The position numbers and the translations under genes were made by a program. The notes under the pieces are model-generated. The model had not been told where the DNA came from. It made no database searches and saw nothing but the letters and a program-made list of their open reading frames with translations. A DNA stretch of 34,188 nucleotides from Fibrobacter intestinalis (GTDB lineage: Bacteria > Fibrobacterota > Fibrobacteria > Fibrobacterales > Fibrobacteraceae): NCBI RefSeq assembly GCF_900167415.1, contig NZ_FUWU01000036.1, positions 1 to 34,188 of the forward strand. The letters are read 5' to 3'. This document shows positions 3,586 through 17,385 of this stretch, one piece after another. Numbering within the stretch: position 1 is the stretch's first letter; the number at the start of each line of letters is the position of its first letter.

Positions 3586-3777
3586 ATTGAACTCCTTTTG
3601 AAACGCGTCCAAATCTAACAATTTTTTAGTCAAGCGGCGTTCGTTCAAAAAATGAGATGCTTCGAATTCCCGAAATAGGCAGTCGTGGCGATTCGGCTGC
3701 GCTGTCCGCAAAAAAATCCTCGTGCAAAAATGCCGGGCCGGTTTCATTCCTAAAGCATTTTTTAGTAAGTTGTGTTT

Positions 3778-4623
3778 ATGCGTTGGATTTCATGGTTTCG
3801 ATTTTCTGTGGCGTTGGGCGTTTGGGTTTTAGGGGCGTGCGCCGGGAATGGGCAATCGTCGGGAGCAAAGGATTCTCCGGGGGATTTCGGGTGCGAGGAT
3901 TGCGGCGAGCAAGGGGAAATGGAATTGGAAATTTTTGACGAGCGGAAGTTTGTGGAGATTCATCCGAAGATAAATACGGCTTTTCAAACTGCGGCGACGC
4001 TCGGCAGTTTTCCGACATCGAAAGTCTTTGCGAATTGCCCCGAAGGAAGTAAAATCTGCCATAGCTTTAGCGACGACGCGGTGGATTTTGATTTGGCGCA
4101 TTTTGAAGATTCCCTTTTGGCGCGTCGCTTTCCGAAAGCCAATCGCGAACAGATGCTGGAAGGTTTAAGAATTCCCGAAGGAGATTCCCTGTGGATTCGG
4201 GAGGCGTTGCAGAAAATTCTTTCGACGGCTTTGGGCGATGGCAAATCGCTTTTGGATACGGCCTTTTGGAAATCCCGAACGGACGATTCCGAAATTTATT
4301 CGCGTTTTGAACGGGAAATCCCGCGGGAAATTCGGCGGGAACTGGCCGCGGTGTCGAAGCGTTACAATGTGCGCTATTTGACCATTCCCGTTTTTGTCCG
4401 GGTTGAAATTTTACCGAAACTGGGGAAAAGCGGCGGCTTTCGCTGGATGTCCCTGTGGACTCTTTGGGATGCGCGCTTGGGAAATCTGCTGTTTTTAAGT
4501 TATGAAGAATTTGGTGCCAAAACCAAGAGCCGGATTGCTCCGGAGCGTCATTGGGCGAAGCCTTTTGCCGAACGGCTGGAAAAAGATATTTACCTGGAAC
4601 CGCAGAAGATTGAAAATCACTAG
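3778..4623 (+). CDS. Putative lipoprotein of unknown function
   Basis: The 281-residue protein begins with MRWISWFRF, a short hydrophobic core and the lipobox LGAC, with the lipidated Cys at residue 21, followed by a small polar linker rich in Gly, Ser and Asp. The mature part is soluble, mixed alpha/beta, and charged, with LRIPEGDSLWIREAL around residues 120-134 and a conserved-looking IPREIRRELAAVSKRYNVRYLTIPVFVRVEI segment near 180-210. I recognise no family. The arrangement RYNVRYLTIPVFVRV...WTLWDARLGNLLFLSYEEF resembles a strand-rich region of outer-membrane-associated lipoproteins, but that is only an impression. A GTG at 3772 is an alternative start. The gene is divergent from ychF and convergent with the GH8 gene, overlapping its end by 4 bases. 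Confidence 0.8.
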   Translation: MRWISWFRFSVALGVWVLGACAGNGQSSGAKDSPGDFGCEDCGEQGEMELEIFDERKFVEIHPKINTAFQTAATLGSFPTSKVFANCPEGSKICHSFSDDAVDFDLAHFEDSLLARRFPKANREQMLEGLRIPEGDSLWIREALQKILSTALGDGKSLLDTAFWKSRTDDSEIYSRFEREIPREIRRELAAVSKRYNVRYLTIPVFVRVEILPKLGKSGGFRWMSLWTLWDARLGNLLFLSYEEFGAKTKSRIAPERHWAKPFAERLEKDIYLEPQKIENH

Positions 4624-5759
4624 CGGCCAGAGAGGGCGAGAAAGCCGAGCAGGTACAGCATGCCGTCGTAATAGCGCCAAGTGCCGGTGGGGATGGGAAC
4701 GTTCCAGAGGGCGTTCAGAAAATCGCGGGCGAGTTCTCGGTCTTGCTGCAGGGAGAAGTCGAGGGCGGCTGCGGCTGCGGCATTCATCGCGATGAGGCCG
4801 GTTGTGATGGGACGGGAATTCTCGCAGGGAATGCCGTTTAAGCGGTAGTCGGCGCGTGGATTTTTTTGCGACTTGAAAAAACGGAGCATCTTTCGGATCG
4901 TTTCTTGGGCAAAATTTTTGGCGAGCAGATGTTCATTTTCGCAAATGCCGGGAATTTCCCAGTTGGCGTCTAAAGCCAGGTTGTAGGCGACGCGCCAGGC
5001 GTCCCCGCTAAAACAATCGCTGTGAGGCGAGAACGCTGTGGATTTGGGTGAACCGTCAAATTCAGCGTAGTCCGGAAAAAGTCCCGTGTCCGGATGGGCT
5101 GCGCATTTCAAAAAGGCGACGCTTTGCTTGTAAACGGATTCCCAGAAAGTATCCTTGGTTTCTGCAGCAAAGAGGCGGTAAAAGGCGAGGGTGTGGTAAC
5201 TCGGGTCGGTAAAATCGTTGCCCTCCACGGGAGAAAATCGGACGAGAAAATTTTCCGGGTCGAACATGGCGCGAACTTTTCCGGCGGGCTTTTTATGCGC
5301 CATCGCATGGAGAAGTTTCAATGCTTCGTCTCGGTATGCGTTGTTTCCGAATCGGCGAGCCGCCAACAGAAGTGCCGCTGCAAAATATTCTTCGCCATCC
5401 GGGGCGGCTCCTGCATCCATTTTGAAAAATTGCCCCTGACGTTTTTTGTCGAATCCGACTTGCCATGCAAAATAGGGAGCGTCATCGGTTTCTGCATTTT
5501 GCAGATACGTTTTTGAAAATTCCCAAAGGGCTTGGAAAAGTTCCAGAAGGCCGAGTTTGGCGGCGATATACATCCCGTAACTCATTCCCTCGCTTCGGAT
5601 GTCCGAATGCCCGATGTCGATAATGCATTTGTACTGCTGAAAGTCGAAGCAGATTTTTTCGCTGGAGTCGTTTCCTTCAAAAAGACTATGGAATGCGCTC
5701 TGGATTTTTTGCTGCACTTCGGCGGCGGATTTGCCGATGAGTTGAAACGGATTGTTCAT
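4620..5759 (-). CDS. GH8 reducing-end xylose-releasing exo-oligoxylanase-like
   Basis: The 379-residue protein is a glycoside hydrolase family 8 (alpha/alpha)6-barrel enzyme most like Rex (EC 3.2.1.156), which removes xylose from the reducing end of xylo-oligosaccharides by inversion. The family motif SDIRSEGMSYGM places the general acid Glu at residue 57. APDGEEYF gives Asp121. SGDAWRVAYN gives Asp253, matching the catalytic base region of Rex. There is no signal peptide, so it should work in the cytoplasm on imported oligosaccharides. It is the last gene of a leftward operon, and its ATG overlaps the stop of the HAD gene (ATGA). Exact substrate is inferred from family; other GH8 members are cellulases, licheninases or chitosanases. 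Confidence 0.88.
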   Translation of the reverse strand: MNNPFQLIGKSAAEVQQKIQSAFHSLFEGNDSSEKICFDFQQYKCIIDIGHSDIRSEGMSYGMYIAAKLGLLELFQALWEFSKTYLQNAETDDAPYFAWQVGFDKKRQGQFFKMDAGAAPDGEEYFAAALLLAARRFGNNAYRDEALKLLHAMAHKKPAGKVRAMFDPENFLVRFSPVEGNDFTDPSYHTLAFYRLFAAETKDTFWESVYKQSVAFLKCAAHPDTGLFPDYAEFDGSPKSTAFSPHSDCFSGDAWRVAYNLALDANWEIPGICENEHLLAKNFAQETIRKMLRFFKSQKNPRADYRLNGIPCENSRPITTGLIAMNAAAAAALDFSLQQDRELARDFLNALWNVPIPTGTWRYYDGMLYLLGFLALSGR

Positions 5760-6442
5760 TTGGAAATGTCGCGTTTGCTTGCCCGAAAAAATTCATCGAA
5801 AATGGAAAGCAGGGAAGAGCCGTTTTGGAATAGCTTCGTCTGCATTCCGATGGCGGTTGCTCCACGGATGTCACGGTTCGGATCGTCGCCGACGAACAGG
5901 GTGTTGGCGGGGTTGGTTCCAAGGCGTTCCAGTGCGATCTGGAAAATTTCGGGCTCGGGCTTTTTGTGGTGGACTTCGCTGGAAATCACGACGGCGTCGA
6001 GCATTTTGAGAAGTCCGTGCTTGCGCAAAACTTTACGGACGTGGGGCCCGTGCTCAAAATTGGAAACGATGCCGATGCGGACTTGCTGCCGTTGCAGTGC
6101 CTGTAAAAGGGGAATCGCTTGCGGGTGAAGCGGAACCATTCGCTGCCAGCGGTTCATGGAAGTGGCTGCGGTGTGCTTAATCCAGTTTACATCCGGAGAA
6201 ATTCCAAAGTGTTCGGCGAGAATTTTCAGGCGCGATTCATAAAGGGTGAAACCCTCTTTTTCGGGGATGTCTTCGGCAAAAAAATGCTTGCACTGCTTGG
6301 AAACTTGGGAAACGGAAACCGATATTCCCAGATTTTTCAGTGCGCGTGTCAGATCTTCGTGCCAAAAGCCGAAAGCCCGGGACATATTGCCGTAGGTGAA
6401 AAGCGTCCCATAAAGGTCAAAAAGAACACCGGAAATTTCCAT
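5756..6442 (-). CDS. HAD-superfamily hydrolase
   Basis: The 228-residue protein carries the HAD motifs in order: motif I FDLYGTLF with nucleophile Asp9, motif II IVSNFEHG, motif III Lys in HHKKPEPEIF, and motif IV VGDDPNRDI. A helical cap lies between motifs I and II (residues about 15-100). The residue two after the nucleophile is Tyr11 where phosphatases have Asp. This DxYGT form is typical of the 2-haloacid dehalogenase/HDHD3-like subgroup, so phosphatase activity should not be assumed. The gene overlaps the GH8 start by ATGA and begins 9 bases after the Dabb gene stop, so it is translationally linked to both. The substrate is unknown. Confidence 0.9.
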   Translation of the reverse strand: MEISGVLFDLYGTLFTYGNMSRAFGFWHEDLTRALKNLGISVSVSQVSKQCKHFFAEDIPEKEGFTLYESRLKILAEHFGISPDVNWIKHTAATSMNRWQRMVPLHPQAIPLLQALQRQQVRIGIVSNFEHGPHVRKVLRKHGLLKMLDAVVISSEVHHKKPEPEIFQIALERLGTNPANTLFVGDDPNRDIRGATAIGMQTKLFQNGSSLLSIFDEFFRASKRDISK

Positions 6443-6451
6443 TGGAACAAA

Positions 6452-6754
6452 TCAGATTTCGTAGTCGATGACGCAGCGCTCGCTGGAAACTTTGCCGATG
6501 AATTGCTTGATGGCGACGTGGGCGGGAAAGTCCTGGTAAAAATCCAGGTCCGCTTTGGTGGGGAAAGCCGTCACGAGACCGACATCCCAGGCTGCGGGGC
6601 TGCGGTTGAAGTCGATTCCGGATTCGATCGAAAGAAGCCCCGGGACTTTGCCTTCCAGCGTTTTGAATCGGGCGACGATTTCTTGGGCATTTTGTTCGGC
6701 GGTTTTGCCTTCGGCTTCGGGTTTCAATTTCCAAAGAACAATGTGTTTGATCAT
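6452..6754 (-). CDS. Dabb (stress-responsive alpha/beta-barrel) domain protein
   Basis: The 100-residue protein is a single Dabb domain, a dimeric ferredoxin-like fold. It opens with the family signature MIKHIVLWKLKPEA, has the conserved GLLSIESGIDFNRSPAAWDVGLV core, and continues with ADLDFYQDFPAHVAIKQF carrying the conserved His. Most family members lack a defined reaction; some are cyclases or stress proteins. Its start overlaps the stop of the glycosyltransferase gene by 4 bases (ATGA), so it is co-translated in the operon running from 9836 to 4620. Confidence 0.92.
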   Translation of the reverse strand: MIKHIVLWKLKPEAEGKTAEQNAQEIVARFKTLEGKVPGLLSIESGIDFNRSPAAWDVGLVTAFPTKADLDFYQDFPAHVAIKQFIGKVSSERCVIDYEI

Positions 6755-7944
6755 AATCTGTCCTTGATGATTTTTTGATACAGGGCGAATTGCCTTTCAA
6801 AGCAGCTTTGCCAGCTGAATTTTTTGGCGTAGTCCGTCGCCTTGCTTTTCAAATTGGCGATTCCCATCTGGGAAATTTTTAGGATGGCGTTTGCCAAAGC
6901 CTGCGGCGTTCGCTCTTCGAGAATGACGCCTGCTCCGGAATTTTTCAAATGTTCCGCAGCGGCTCCGGTGGATGCGGCCACGAGCGCATTGCCGCAAGCC
7001 ATGCTTTCCAAAATGGAAAGTCCAAAAGTTTCCCATCCGGAAAGGGCGAGTCCCAAATCCACGCTGGCATAGTGGCGCGCCATTTCGGCGGCGTCTTGGA
7101 TGAATCCTTCGTAACGAATATGCTTGTAAGTTTCGGCTGCTTTTTGAACTCTCGGCAAATCCGGTCCTGTGCCGGCAAAAAGTACGGCGGGTTCATGTCC
7201 CAGTTTTTCGCATAAAATCGGATAGGCGTCCAAAAACAGGCGCAGTCCTTTTTCGTCGCAAAAACGGTGCGGAAAAAAAATCGTCAGACGTTCAGGGTTG
7301 CCGTCCTTGATTTCATTCACCAGTTTTTCGTCTGCGGCTTCGGGGCGGAAAGTCTGCAAATCCACGCCGAGGGGAATCCATTCGAGCCGGTTTTCGGCAA
7401 AGCCGTGGCGTTGCATGCGTTCCATGACTTCGTGGCAGCTCGCTTCCAAAACGGCGTAATCTTTGAAACTGGAGCGGGCGTAAGCAAAGGCGGCGTTTTC
7501 GCCGAATTGGGCAAGGCGTTTGAATCCCCATTTTTCAAAAAAGCGCCGGACGTAGGTCACGGGAAAATCCGCATGCCAAAATGCCGTGAGAACAGGTCGC
7601 TTCGCCATGTTCTTGCAGGCTTTGGAAACCGCCTTGGGAAGAATATACGGCGATCCGACTTCCACGATGTCGGGCTGGTATTTTTTGAGGGCGACTTGGA
7701 TGTCGGCGTTTTTCCACAGAAATCGGTACTCCCAGTTTCCGGGAAAACGAAATGCCTTCGTGTGTTCAATAATCAGCGAATCGGAAACTTTTTCGGTGAA
7801 AGTCCTTCCATCGTTTTGCACAAAGACGAGCAGCGCATCGGTCTTTTCCTTGTAAAACTTCATACGCTCCAGATGATAGCGGCGGACGCCGCCGCCAGAG
7901 GGACTCCAGAAATTATTGTAATCGACGATGACCAGGCGGCTCAT
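6751..7944 (-). CDS. GT4-like glycosyltransferase
   Basis: The 397-residue protein has the GT-B two-domain layout of family 4 retaining glycosyltransferases. The N-terminal acceptor domain includes the glycine-rich SPSGGGVRRYHLERM near residues 14-28. The C-terminal donor-binding domain contains PHRFCDEKGL (Arg227, Lys232), AGTGPDLP at about 257-264 and the E-x7-E motif ETFGLSILE with Glu305 and Glu313. It probably transfers a sugar from a nucleotide sugar to a membrane or surface acceptor. It lacks transmembrane segments. Its ATG shares a base with the stop of the upstream primase-like gene (TAATG) and its stop overlaps the Dabb start, so it is tightly coupled to both. Donor and acceptor cannot be told from the sequence. 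Confidence 0.93.
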   Translation of the reverse strand: MSRLVIVDYNNFWSPSGGGVRRYHLERMKFYKEKTDALLVFVQNDGRTFTEKVSDSLIIEHTKAFRFPGNWEYRFLWKNADIQVALKKYQPDIVEVGSPYILPKAVSKACKNMAKRPVLTAFWHADFPVTYVRRFFEKWGFKRLAQFGENAAFAYARSSFKDYAVLEASCHEVMERMQRHGFAENRLEWIPLGVDLQTFRPEAADEKLVNEIKDGNPERLTIFFPHRFCDEKGLRLFLDAYPILCEKLGHEPAVLFAGTGPDLPRVQKAAETYKHIRYEGFIQDAAEMARHYASVDLGLALSGWETFGLSILESMACGNALVAASTGAAAEHLKNSGAGVILEERTPQALANAILKISQMGIANLKSKATDYAKKFSWQSCFERQFALYQKIIKDRL

Positions 7945-9836
7945 TATTTCTCTTTCATGCGGTAGGATTTGTCCGAGAAGAGCAGGTTCGCTTCATATAG
8001 CAGGGAACCGGAATTTTTGAGATTTACGGTAAGCCAAAGGGCGCCGTCTTCTTTGCGCTCTAGCCAGAATGTCGCATCGGCATCGCGAAGGAAGGGTCGC
8101 GGACCTAAAATGTGATCGCCGTCTTTGATGACGGAGCCGCTGACAAAAACGGGAATGTCAAGAGTCTTGTAAAAGTCGAGGATGGCCGAAGAACGCCGTT
8201 CGTTCAAATCGGGAATGTCGCTCCGGTCCGAAATGCGCAGGTGGTCTATCCCATCTACAATCAAAATGAGATTCGGGTGCTCGGCGATTTCAGCTTGCAG
8301 TTCTTTCAAGAAGGATTCGTATTGGAATGTCTCCCTGTCTTCCCAGATTTCCAGACGGTCGGTTTTTACATAGTTGATAAGTTCTTGCGTGGCAACGTGA
8401 ATTTGCTTGTTGATTTCGTCGTCTTTGCTGAGTTTATGCACGTCTGCTTCCGAAACGCCGGCGAGCATAGCGATAAAGCGATTCAATGCTGCACGGCGAG
8501 GGCTGTCGAGAGCCACGTAAATCACTTTTGCGTCGGGATTTCCTTCGATGAGGTCCAATGTGAACGAAGAGAGCGCATGGCTTTTGAATCCGTAGGGGTC
8601 GGATGTCAGAAAATAGTAGCCGGGCTGGATGCCGTCGAGCGCATGGGTCAAAGCGGGGAAGTTTTGCAGTCGATGGCCGACGTCCGAATCCGCATTGCGG
8701 CTGATTGCCGAATTGAAATTTTCTTTGATGTCTTGCAACAGGACAGATTTCCGGTGCGTTTGCATGGTGTCTTCCGCTGTTTCGCGGATTCTGTCCATAA
8801 AGGCTTCGGCTCCATCGGAACGGATAAGCGATTCGGCGGTTTCCCCTGCCGGAAGGACGATGGATTTGAATCGGATGCCTTCGGATTCGGCGAGTCCCAG
8901 GCATTTGCGGATGTGCTGTTCCTGGCTTCTTCGGTTGGCTTCTTTGCGGAGAACCAGCGATATGCTTTCGGCTCCGCAGGATTTCAGCTTGTAGAGATGG
9001 CTGCGGTTGAACGGCTGGTACATCGTTGAAACCATACCGGGAATTCCGGCCAGGTCGGCGGTCAAAACATCAAAAAGTCCTTCGACGATGATTGGCGATT
9101 CCATATCTTGCTGGATGTTGAACGGAATGTCCAACGGCCCGGACGCATAGGAAATGTAAACGTCTTCGTTGCAATTTGGCGAGCAGTTGTCCAAAAGCCG
9201 CCCATAAACGGAATGGATGACGCCTTTGGAATTGCGGGCGGGAATCGTGAGGCGCGGTTCGTGGGAGATGTCCAAGTTGTCTAGGTAAAAACTGATTTCA
9301 TGGCGCTTGAGTCCGCAGAGGAGTCCGTAGCTGAAGAACGGTTCCGGATCGCCGCTGTAATAACCGATGCCATAAAGTTTGGACTGATCCAAAGTCCAGT
9401 TTCTTTCTTTTAAAAATTCGGCGGTGGTTTCGCTCTTGGTCGCGGCCCAATAGCAGTAACGTACAAAGCTTTCCAGGACGCGGACTTTGGCTCCTCCGAT
9501 TTCTTGAATATGCGCGGCTTCGTCCTCTTCTTGGATTTTTAATTCATTTTCGGAGGCTCCCCAAAAGTCGAGCGCTTCTTTGCGGGCGGCATTTTCGTCA
9601 AGTCCGTTGAAGCGGCTACGCATCAGAAATTCAACCAGATCGCCATCGGCCCCGCAATGGACGCAGTGATAACGCCAGTAGCCCAGGGAATCGTAGAAAA
9701 AGAGGGTCGATTCCTCGGGAGCGTGAAAAGGGCATTGGGATGCCAGATTGCGCCCCCAACGGGTCAGGGGAACTCCCAGGCGTCGCGGGTGGGTTTTTAC
9801 ACGGGAAAGTCCGATGTTGTCTTCTTCGATGAGCAT
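7944..9836 (-). CDS. Primase-helicase-like protein with degenerate TOPRIM
   Basis: The 630-residue protein has the layout of DnaG/T7 gp4/Twinkle-type primase-helicases. A zinc ribbon (Cys35, His38, Cys58, Cys61) comes first, then a TOPRIM-like region (IIVEG, Glu252), then a RecA/DnaB-like domain with Walker B-like LILIVDGIDHL (Asp528) and LRDADATFWLERK near the end, matching the DnaB DADxxxxLxR motif. Two active sites look altered. The TOPRIM DGDxAGRRA motif aligns with LRKEANRRS (residues 296-304), losing both metal-binding Asp. The Walker A reads SDPYGFKS, with Phe replacing the Gly before Lys418. The start at 9836 is chosen for GAGGTG upstream; the frame is open to 10076. It heads an operon with GT4, Dabb, HAD and GH8 genes and is divergent from ruvC. 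No phage genes are nearby. Confidence 0.85.
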   Translation of the reverse strand: MLIEEDNIGLSRVKTHPRRLGVPLTRWGRNLASQCPFHAPEESTLFFYDSLGYWRYHCVHCGADGDLVEFLMRSRFNGLDENAARKEALDFWGASENELKIQEEDEAAHIQEIGGAKVRVLESFVRYCYWAATKSETTAEFLKERNWTLDQSKLYGIGYYSGDPEPFFSYGLLCGLKRHEISFYLDNLDISHEPRLTIPARNSKGVIHSVYGRLLDNCSPNCNEDVYISYASGPLDIPFNIQQDMESPIIVEGLFDVLTADLAGIPGMVSTMYQPFNRSHLYKLKSCGAESISLVLRKEANRRSQEQHIRKCLGLAESEGIRFKSIVLPAGETAESLIRSDGAEAFMDRIRETAEDTMQTHRKSVLLQDIKENFNSAISRNADSDVGHRLQNFPALTHALDGIQPGYYFLTSDPYGFKSHALSSFTLDLIEGNPDAKVIYVALDSPRRAALNRFIAMLAGVSEADVHKLSKDDEINKQIHVATQELINYVKTDRLEIWEDRETFQYESFLKELQAEIAEHPNLILIVDGIDHLRISDRSDIPDLNERRSSAILDFYKTLDIPVFVSGSVIKDGDHILGPRPFLRDADATFWLERKEDGALWLTVNLKNSGSLLYEANLLFSDKSYRMKEK

Positions 9837-9967: not shown

Positions 9968-10534
9968 ATGGTTTTTCTCGGTGTGGATCCCGGTTCCTAC
10001 ACTTCCGGGTATGCGTTTCTCGATAAGGGCGCGGACGATTCGATTCGTGTGCTGGAATACGGAGCGATTTCCGCAAAATCCCGGGATTCTTTTGCTGACA
10101 GGCTGGTGAAAATCGTCGGCGATTTGGAAAAACGGGTGAAGGAGTACAACCCGTCGGTCTTGATCATGGAAAGCGCCTTTTTTGCGAAGAACGTTCACAG
10201 CGCGATGATTCTCGGCCATGTCCGAGGGGCGATTCTGGTCATGTGTCGTCGTCTGGGCATGGAATTTTTTGAATACAGCCCGCGATCCGTCAAGTTGGCG
10301 GTGACGGGAGACGGTGCGTCGTCCAAAGAAAAAGTGGCGGCTATGGTGACGTCTCGATTGGGCATTTGCCAAGGGAAAATCAAGCTGGATGCGACCGATG
10401 CGCTTGCCGTCGCCAGCGCCCATCTCTTTTTGCAAAAGGGAACGGTGCTGCATTCTCCCCGCAAATCGACGTCGCAAAAAAGCAAGCAGCTGCGGGAATT
10501 GATTGTGAAAATGGGAGGCAAGTTACCCGAATGA
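9968..10534 (+). CDS. ruvC: Holliday junction resolvase RuvC
   Basis: RuvC is the endonuclease that cuts four-way junctions after RuvAB branch migration. The 188-residue protein has the RNase H-like fold signature and all four metal ligands in place: Asp7 in GVDPGS, Glu68 in MESAFF, and Asp141 and Asp144 in DATDALAVA. Length is slightly above the usual 160-180 because of a basic C-terminal tail rich in Lys and Ser. No clear Shine-Dalgarno precedes the ATG. The stop overlaps the start of the M15 peptidase gene (ATGA). ruvA and ruvB are not in the window. Confidence 0.97.
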   Translation: MVFLGVDPGSYTSGYAFLDKGADDSIRVLEYGAISAKSRDSFADRLVKIVGDLEKRVKEYNPSVLIMESAFFAKNVHSAMILGHVRGAILVMCRRLGMEFFEYSPRSVKLAVTGDGASSKEKVAAMVTSRLGICQGKIKLDATDALAVASAHLFLQKGTVLHSPRKSTSQKSKQLRELIVKMGGKLPE

Positions 10535-14877: not shown

Positions 14878-17385
14878 TTATTTCAGTGGAAATGCGTAAA
14901 GCAGCCTTTTAGGCGAAGGACAGAAAAGGGTATTGTCCAAGATAAAGGGGGTTCCAGCTCCGCCGGGAGTGCTGAAAGATTTTTCCAGAATCCCTTTGGC
15001 AAGCGATATTTTGGCGATATGCGTTTTTTGATCAATATAAAGGCTGTTCCCGTTTATCACCGGCGATGAATAGACGGAGCCTTGCCCGGCATAAGTCCAT
15101 AGCGGCGTCTTGGACGTGAGCCCATAGAGGTGGATTTTTTGGCTGGCCGTCATGGTTAAAAGATAGGGCGTGTTGCCGACGATTGCCCAATGGAGGGAGA
15201 GGATGGGTGAGTCGGTTTGAATCGTGTGCGTCGGCTTTTTTTGATGAGGGGCGAACACGTAGATTTCGTTTTGTTCGGAAGCGATGGCCGCCAGGGTGTC
15301 TGAAAGTTCCATTGAGGAAACGTTGGCTCCGATTTCCAGCATTTCATCGATGTTTTGACCTGTTGCCGCATTTACAAATCCGAAACTTCCCTCTAGGCTG
15401 GAGACGGCGATGGAAGATGTCGAAATGTCGAAATGGAAGGGAAGGTTGAAAAGTTTTCTCGCCCAGGCGATGCTGTAATTGGGGGCGAGAAGTTTGACAA
15501 AGTAGCCGTTCCAGGTGGAGACGAAAATGGAATTGTCCCAAAATTGAATCTGGAAAGGTTTTCCGGGCAGGTCGCTGTAGCGCATTTTGCCGTTGTGCTG
15601 CAAGTCCAGAATCTGGATGCGGAATCCGCTGGCCAATGCCAAGCTGGAAGAATTGTTGGCGAAAACGGGACTGGTTTCCAGAAAGCCGAGATCTTTTTTC
15701 CAGCGGATGGTTCCCGTTGCGGGGTCGATAGCGAAAAGCTGCTGCGCTGCGGGATCCACCGTGTAAAGATTATGGCCTGCGCTAAAGAGGTTCGGGTAAG
15801 GAGTGCGCGGGGAGAGCGGCAGAAAATGGACGTAATGGGCGCCGATGATCTTGGCAAAATGATCCAGAATTTTGGGGGAATCTTTGGCATTGCCGAATGA
15901 ATAGCGGACGGTGTTCGCCCAAGCGTTTGCCCGGGTATTTTCGTCTGCCCCGATTTGTTCCAGATAAACGGCCTGCAAATAATTGACGGTCGGATTTCCC
16001 GGTTCCAGTGCTGTTGCCGAATCGATGTGCGCTTTGGCGTTTGTCCAATCCCCATTGTGCATTTCCGAAAAAGCGAGCGATGCGAATTGCTGGGAAAGAA
16101 TCGGTTTTTTCCCATAGTGCAGAGCGGTAATCGTGATGATTTCCTGATTGTCGAAGGGCAAATAGATTCGACCTTGATTTTTGAATGGCTTCGCAGAAAG
16201 GGGCTTGCCAAAGTGGTATTCCCACAGCGGTTGCAGCTCTTCATTGACGACGGTTAGTGCGCCTTCTTGGGAAAAAATTCCCAAAGCCCCCTGGGCGGTT
16301 TCAAAAAGAATTTCGCCATCTATTTGGGTCGAGTTCGTTTCGTTGCCGGTGTGCGGATCGAGCAGTTTGAGGTTTCCCCCGGTTTCCAAAACCGCTATGC
16401 GATTTCCGAAAAAGGTCATGCTTTCTATCGGGTTGCACTTGCTTTCCCATTGGAAACTGAGAGCGTTCTGCGGGCGGTAAAGGCGAATGGAATTTGCGGA
16501 AGCCACATAGGTGCCGTCCTCGGTGAGCAGGGTATGCTGAATCGGATCCATCAGGGAGAGCGTCTGCATTTCGGAGCCCGTTTCGGCGTCGATCAAATGC
16601 AGCGCGTTGTCTTGGCAGTTGAGGACAAGCTCGTTTTGGGCTTCATATATGCCGACGGGAGTGCAGCCGCGGTAACGGTTTTCGATAGAGAATCGGATTC
16701 CTTCGTTGAAGAGGTAGGCGAAATTTTTTTCGGTCGTGACCATGGCACTCTGGTTGGATACGGGCAAAACATCCAGAATTTTTGAGTCGAAAGTGAAAAT
16801 GTGAATGGCCTGTTTGGTGTTTTTCGGTTGGAACTGGAGCGTGTTTTCGGCAAGGGAGGAAAACCAGATTCCTTGAGACGAAATGGCGAAAATTTTGGAT
16901 TCGCTGGGAATGGAGGTGGGGACTGCGACGAGTTTTTCTTCGTGCAGGGTGTAGAGCTGGTTGTTGGCGAGAAGAATGGAGGGCGAGGAATTTTCAAAAG
17001 TCTTTCGGATGGAAACGGGGAAGCGGGTGCGGCTCAGGACGATGCGCTCCGGCGAGGAATCCAGTGTGGCGATGCGGCTCGCTAGAAAATAGGCGTGCTC
17101 CGAAGACTGGGGATTTATCAACGCTTGTCTGTAATAGAACGCGGCGTTTTGCGGATTTTCGGTCACTTCCTGGATTTTGCCCAAAAGAAAAAAAGCGTTG
17201 CTGCGGTCTTCTTCATCGCCTTCCAGGGATATGCGGGAAAGCTGATCCTGCGCATCCATAAAGTTGCCTTTGATTTCAAACTGATAGACAGCTTCCCGAA
17301 GTTCCTTATACATGCGGGATGCGAAAACGGAGACGATAGAGAAAAGTATCGCGAGGACTATTTTTTTCAAAAGATGGGTGCGCAT
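14878..17385 (-). CDS. Exported TPR/PQQ-like beta-propeller protein
   Basis: The 835-residue protein starts with a basic n-region and hydrophobic segment (about residues 8-22, ending VFA-SRM), so it is exported or membrane-anchored. Residues about 25-95 form TPR-like helices (FFLLGKIQEVTENPQNAAFYYRQAL). A WD40/PQQ-like propeller with short blades follows (HLIDAETGSEM, KLLDPHTGNET), then a second TPR-like stretch around 435-485, then PQQ-type repeats (LFAIDPATGTIRWKKDLG; PLWTYAGQGSVYSSPVINGN). The repeats resemble BamB and outer-membrane assembly scaffolds, but the double TPR-propeller layout is not one I can name. Its gene begins 11 bases after the response regulator stop, which points to a shared transcript with the two-component system. 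A scaffold or signal partner role is inference. Confidence 0.85.
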   Translation of the reverse strand: MRTHLLKKIVLAILFSIVSVFASRMYKELREAVYQFEIKGNFMDAQDQLSRISLEGDEEDRSNAFFLLGKIQEVTENPQNAAFYYRQALINPQSSEHAYFLASRIATLDSSPERIVLSRTRFPVSIRKTFENSSPSILLANNQLYTLHEEKLVAVPTSIPSESKIFAISSQGIWFSSLAENTLQFQPKNTKQAIHIFTFDSKILDVLPVSNQSAMVTTEKNFAYLFNEGIRFSIENRYRGCTPVGIYEAQNELVLNCQDNALHLIDAETGSEMQTLSLMDPIQHTLLTEDGTYVASANSIRLYRPQNALSFQWESKCNPIESMTFFGNRIAVLETGGNLKLLDPHTGNETNSTQIDGEILFETAQGALGIFSQEGALTVVNEELQPLWEYHFGKPLSAKPFKNQGRIYLPFDNQEIITITALHYGKKPILSQQFASLAFSEMHNGDWTNAKAHIDSATALEPGNPTVNYLQAVYLEQIGADENTRANAWANTVRYSFGNAKDSPKILDHFAKIIGAHYVHFLPLSPRTPYPNLFSAGHNLYTVDPAAQQLFAIDPATGTIRWKKDLGFLETSPVFANNSSSLALASGFRIQILDLQHNGKMRYSDLPGKPFQIQFWDNSIFVSTWNGYFVKLLAPNYSIAWARKLFNLPFHFDISTSSIAVSSLEGSFGFVNAATGQNIDEMLEIGANVSSMELSDTLAAIASEQNEIYVFAPHQKKPTHTIQTDSPILSLHWAIVGNTPYLLTMTASQKIHLYGLTSKTPLWTYAGQGSVYSSPVINGNSLYIDQKTHIAKISLAKGILEKSFSTPGGAGTPFILDNTLFCPSPKRLLYAFPLK

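Follow-up and report, generated by a model that had tools for sequence, protein, structure and literature searches.

The protein described here stands about an even chance of being a lineage-specific pseudo-primase-helicase that acts as a non-catalytic regulator or scaffold, a reading drawn from sequence comparison. It is encoded in the window, the 34,188-nucleotide stretch of Fibrobacter intestinalis DNA that was analysed, by a 630-residue open reading frame on the minus strand. The frame starts with an ATG at 9836 and stops at 7944-7946, and its orthologues align from residue 1 on. The gene and its domains are arranged as follows.

7944..9836, minus strand: pseudo-primase-helicase gene, 630 aa (P0001), with full-length orthologues in 97 genomes
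9612..9773, minus strand: DnaG-type zinc ribbon, residues 22-75 (PF01807 and ligand conservation)
8736..9509, minus strand: DnaG RNA-polymerase/TOPRIM domain (RPD), residues 110-367, catalytically dead (structure match and hhalign)
8703..8756, minus strand: linker helix, residues 361-378, well conserved (model and column conservation)
7947..8684, minus strand: DnaB-type RecA domain, residues 385-630 (DnaB_C matches, structure and hhalign)

In Pfam, the zinc ribbon scored 31.9 bits against a cut-off of 24.9 and the TOPRIM match was sub-threshold, while the NCBIfam dnaG model, TIGR01391, matched residues 22-364 (E 1.3e-20) with 73.7 bits, far under its cut-off of 283.6. Among 37 aligned family members, the zinc ribbon was matched in 37, DnaB_C in 35 and, weakly, Toprim_4 in 26, and the zinc ligands C35, H38, C58 and C61 are invariant in all 83 distinct sequences. 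A search of the PDB with the family profile found DnaG and DnaB chains. The AlphaFold2 model of the protein has a pLDDT of 78 and a pTM of 0.52, a value at which the packing of the domains is unreliable. Its full-length Foldseek matches were Twinkle (7t8b, the best) and T7 gp4. Residues 110-367 of the model matched DnaG polymerase domains with Z about 20 (for S. aureus DnaG, 4edg, Z 20.1 and 2.9 Å over 246 residues), and residues 385-630 gave their highest DnaB score with the E. coli protein (Z 23.8). The zinc ribbon, RPD, linker helix and RecA domain within one chain represent a T7 gp4/Twinkle-type architecture. The C-terminal helicase-binding domain of DnaG is absent, and the DnaB-type RecA domain occupies the C-terminus instead; the N-terminal domain of DnaB is also absent, the N-terminal half being DnaG-like by hhalign. 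Profiles and model thereby agree with the sequence-only reading of this DNA, which had placed a zinc ribbon, TOPRIM-like and DnaB-like domains in that order. The protein is neither a new fold nor an artefact. Judged from its sequence, the chain is of the DnaG/DnaB, gp4/Twinkle kind by descent and architecture, but it lacks the functional hallmarks of DnaG primases and of canonical SF4 helicases.

What has become of the primase centre? In DnaG, the acidic residues of the TOPRIM site serve metal-dependent primer synthesis. Three stretches of the present protein correspond to them.

8928..8951, minus strand: LRKEANRR, residues 296-303, where DnaG has DGDxAGR (alignment and hhalign)
8832..8840, minus strand: TAE, residues 333-335, where DnaG has its second acidic motif, DPD (alignment and hhalign)
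9069..9083, minus strand: the retained acidic residues E252 and D256 of the VEGxFD motif (alignment)

The family was aligned by hhalign with Fibrobacterota DnaG over residues 22-351, with a probability of 99.5; LVFDGDEAGR of DnaG pairs gap-free with LVLRKEANRR, as had been proposed from the sequence, and DPD pairs with TAE. An alternative alignment restoring the aspartates was ruled out by this gap-free pairing across the DxD stretch. Position 296, the first Asp of the DxD motif, is Leu in 81, Ile in one and Met in one of the 83 distinct sequences; position 298, the second Asp, is Arg in 73 and Lys in 10; and position 302 is Arg in 82 of the 83. The weighted conservation is 0.93 for Leu296, 1.0 for Arg/Lys298 and 0.93 for Arg302. 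Because these three columns are conserved above the median column (weighted entropy), the replacement of DxD was fixed and then kept, and the conserved residues that took its place would fit a new function rather than decay. The DPD positions read T/S/N-x-D/E across the 83 sequences (family consensus T-V-D), with the first Asp lost. As E252 is retained in 70 of the 83 and D256 in all of them, the TOPRIM acidic site is not wholly gone. No orthologue with intact DxD and Walker A motifs was present among the 83 sequences. With DxD gone from every one of them and the first Asp of DPD lost, it is very probable that priming activity has been lost, as the sequence-only reading had supposed.

The RecA half departs from DnaB less uniformly, and it bears on whether ATPase activity has been lost too.

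8580..8603, minus strand: divergent Walker A SDPYGFKS, residues 412-419 (alignment)
8253..8255, minus strand: Walker B Asp528, invariant (83/83 sequences)

Here hhalign aligned the family with DnaB with a probability of 93.7 and paired RPGMGKS with DPYGFKS. Position 417, where Phe had been read in place of the Gly that precedes the Walker A Lys, is never Gly in the 83 sequences and is Leu, Phe, Tyr, Asp or His instead. Lys418 and Thr/Ser419 are each present in 82 of the 83, the catalytic Glu444 in 74 (Asp in eight) and a candidate Arg finger at position 608 in 73 (Asn in eight). The genus of the window has the weaker set, Asp444 and Asn608, and one genus (L036) has lost the P-loop Lys itself and carries Lys in place of Glu444. 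The full motif set of a working helicase (Walker A GxxGK[ST], Walker B, catalytic Glu and Arg finger) is thus broken at the Gly in all 83 sequences and mostly kept elsewhere. The suggestion that the ATPase was perhaps also lost is uncertain from the sequence: the Walker A Gly is gone throughout, yet the Lys, the Thr/Ser, Asp528 and mostly Glu444 and the Arg at 608 survive. The retained P-loop Lys and Walker B Asp, with mostly the catalytic Glu and the candidate Arg finger, would argue against a purely structural RecA half. These same residues, together with the conserved linker helix, the structural closeness to DnaB and the divergent neighbour ruvC in most genera, are what a Twinkle-like motor would be expected to show, in which the primase half is purely structural and the RecA half, through a non-canonical P-loop (P-F-G-L-K-T), can still use NTP as a translocase or remodeller of DNA or RNA, perhaps in repair beside ruvC. 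We consider such a motor possible and rather doubtful, given the universal loss of the Gly, the further losses in L036 and in the genus of the window, and the alteration of the DNA-contact loop of DnaB. This loop, LRESG, contacts single-stranded DNA in DnaB and is replaced in the family, as aligned by hhalign. In addition, the family is more acidic than its relatives, with a net charge of -3.7 per 100 residues versus -1.1 for DnaG and -2.3 for DnaB. The acidic composition and the altered loop would speak against simple DnaB-like threading of DNA. A recruited DNA- or RNA-binding role, as the sequence-only reading had suggested, is plausible, and the acidic composition is of no help to it.

The distribution of the gene indicates how it has been kept. 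When 167 Fibrobacterota genomes were searched with a profile, 97 of them, all Fibrobacteraceae, yielded a total of 98 full-length copies, and no full-length relative turned up outside this family; the next matches, below 51 bits, were DnaG-like genes matched in their N-terminal part only. Among the GTDB species genomes scanned, Fibrobacter-type records alone were retrieved. The gene is present in nine of the 11 Fibrobacteraceae genera sampled and absent from g6 and g9. In the DnaG tree, the g6+g9 group is nested among gene-bearing genera, and the gene-bearing g7 and g11 branch outside; the cheapest reading is apparently that the ancestor of the family had the gene and that it was lost once, in g6+g9. 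When the tree is built from the N-terminal half, the family forms one group whose stem carries several changes per site and whose internal branches are short, which suggests fast change once and constraint since; the stem is too long to place the origin of the family inside the Fibrobacterota DnaG tree.

In four within-genus pairs, dN/dS (Nei-Gojobori, the widest pair being near saturation) was 0.029, 0.043, 0.035 and 0.056 for the pseudo-primase-helicase, compared with 0.064, 0.069, 0.037 and 0.064 for DnaG. By these sequence-based rates, the gene is not decaying and is under strong purifying selection, about as strict as that on active DnaG, which upholds the earlier statement that it is kept intact; orthologues with intact DxD and Walker A, better alignments and signs of decay had all been looked for, and none was found. 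The weak matches to phage and plasmid primases might raise the suspicion that the gene is a primase-helicase left behind by a phage or plasmid and now decaying, a mere remnant. The matches listed are about 22-26% identical, mostly over the DnaG-like N-terminal part, and no phage or plasmid record covered 80% of the query; the 16 pattern matches in viral contigs included no relative. Against these low selection ratios, the intact gene in 97 genomes, the fixed chromosomal locus and the vertical pattern, we give the remnant practically no credence.

Separate DnaG and DnaB genes occur in the genomes sampled (the DnaB of the source genome lies on contig C32), and DciA is present beside them in gene-bearing genomes, so the role of a substitute for a missing replication part was ruled out. 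Descent from relatives of both replisome proteins, in genomes that hold DnaG, DnaB and DciA, would also suit a modulator of replication that adjusts primer synthesis or the loading of the helicase by entering DnaG- or DnaB-containing assemblies, either as a decoy or as a dominant partner. This modulator is quite unlikely, since the chain is devoid of the C-terminal domain of DnaG and the N-terminal domain of DnaB, where DnaG meets DnaB, g6 and g9 live without the gene, and the presence of DciA does not track it. An apparent lack of DciA in g6 was seen in genome G005 only and was contradicted by other g6 genomes. G005, which has no pseudo-primase and no DciA match, has six DnaB_C matches, several of them full-strength DnaB-like and perhaps of prophage origin. 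The source genome also encodes a third CHC2 zinc-ribbon/TOPRIM protein of 361 residues (L003:1489-2574, G000 contig C24), with an intact-looking acidic motif, LDQDDAGR; similar genes occur in other Fibrobacteraceae, and it is possibly a mobile-element primase.

Which genes travel with the pseudo-primase-helicase? The sequence-only reading had placed it at the head of an operon of sugar genes, of which the GT4 gene alone proved constant.

6751..7944, minus strand: GT4 glycosyltransferase (PF00534/PF13439; Pfam), directly downstream in 85/85 loci
6452..6754, minus strand: Dabb-domain gene (Pfam), next in about half of the loci, outside the conserved core
5756..6442, minus strand: HAD-family hydrolase (Pfam), in few genera, outside the conserved core
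4620..5759, minus strand: GH8 gene (Pfam), adjacent in the window's genus only
9968..10534, plus strand: ruvC, divergent neighbour, near in most loci

The GT4 gene follows directly on the same strand in all 85 distinct loci, at distances from a 19-nucleotide overlap to a 26-nucleotide gap, where the GT4 start sites in the other loci are inferred from that of the window. The TAATG overlap with the GT4 gene at 7942-7946 was read directly, and the ATGA overlaps at 5756-5759 and 6751-6754 were deduced from the ends of the reading frames, all as previously noted. The pairing persists in g7 and g11, the two deepest genera, where ruvC is not beside the gene. The two proteins are probably co-produced. 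The beta-propeller/PQQ-repeat protein at 14878-17385 on the minus strand has changed far more rapidly between genera (about 27-48% identity) than its syntenic neighbours (about 47-80%), and the 283-residue protein at 3772-4623 on the plus strand, with no Pfam match at E 1e-4, lies beside the locus in the window's genus only (about 56% identity).

The best NCBIfam model for the GT4 protein is N-acetylglucosaminyl phosphatidylglycerol synthase, matched over nearly the full length and below the cut-off; PimA is among its PDB relatives, and a CDP-alcohol phosphatidyltransferase gene lies near the locus in nearly all cases. This resemblance to phospholipid glycosyltransferases, the pairing that holds even where most other neighbours have changed, and the acidic protein would favour a role without nucleic acid, in which the fold is a protein scaffold for GT4 and envelope lipid glycosylation or regulates them in response to nucleotide. 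We regard this as unlikely, because g6 and other families of the class have GT4 orthologues, of about 46-54% identity, without the pseudo-primase, and because the zinc ribbon and the DnaG arginines have been kept. In g6, an RNase H1 gene with an N-terminal hybrid-binding domain lies just upstream of GT4 (L127:2656-3252, L128:7203-7829, L132, L133 and L134), and the one g9 genome seems to share this arrangement; where the pseudo-primase is present, this RNase H1 is located elsewhere in the genome.

Returning to the non-catalytic regulator or scaffold, we propose the following. Primer synthesis would be impossible with the metal site destroyed. The linker helix and the RecA domain may assemble the protein into a ring or oligomer, and single-stranded nucleic acid may be gripped by the zinc ribbon and the surviving DnaG-derived arginines R145, R201 and R213, which we take to match arginines of E. 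coli DnaG. The modified P-loop would bind nucleotide as a switch at most, and the protein is probably produced together with the GT4 enzyme. In its most extended form, which we think improbable, the proposal is that the founding lineage of the family turned a whole primosome-like chain of DnaG-type and DnaB-type parts into a regulator that is conserved but no longer an enzyme. Conserved basic residues would now line what was once its polymerase site, and this regulator would link a signal, from nucleic acid or nucleotide, to the glycolipid-type glycosyltransferase with which it is always paired.

Kinases and proteases include many well-known pseudo-enzymes. In the literature searched, whose coverage leaves out most subscription papers, we found no described inactive bacterial primase-helicase and no Fibrobacter paralogue, and no bacterial primase-helicase that has lost priming and is yet kept as strictly as a real primase. 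In a family of cellulose digesters of the rumen and gut, a core replication scaffold seems to have been put to another use. The fixed pairing with a glycosyltransferase makes the role directly testable by deletion, and in about a hundred genomes it would be a mistake to annotate the protein as "DNA primase" on the strength of its zinc ribbon.

Among known systems, animal Twinkle is the best full-length Foldseek match and likewise combines a primase-like half without priming, a linker helix and a RecA helicase. Its inactive primase-like half still aids single-stranded DNA binding (PMC7231222, PMC10557236), and the linker helix of T7 gp4 and Twinkle is needed for ring formation (PMC7231222). Twinkle, however, lost three of the four zinc-ribbon cysteines and is an active helicase (PMC7231222), whereas the Fibrobacteraceae protein has an invariant zinc ribbon, no TOPRIM metal site and an altered Walker A, and it is an extra beside bacterial DnaG and DnaB. 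T7 gp4 shares the order of zinc ribbon, RPD/TOPRIM, linker and RecA and the fold (Z 20), and residues of its primase domain help to load it on DNA (PMC9198812); both halves of gp4 are active, while those of the present protein match bacterial DnaG and DnaB chains by sequence, not gp4. With bacterial DnaG, the protein shares a homologous zinc ribbon and RPD (hhalign 99.5%), and it differs in the missing DxD, the lost first Asp of DPD, the absent C-terminal helicase-binding domain and the TIGR01391 score (73.7 vs 283.6). With the C-terminal domain of DnaB, it shares the RecA fold, the Walker B Asp and the LE strand, in contrast to the absent N-terminal domain and the replaced Walker A Gly and LRESG loop. 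Finally, archaeal DnaG, an exosome subunit that binds RNA, is a precedent in that a TOPRIM/DnaG protein there binds nucleic acid in a setting other than replication (PMC4227792); its flanking domains and partners differ and it has no RecA part, the likeness being one of precedent and not of sequence comparison.
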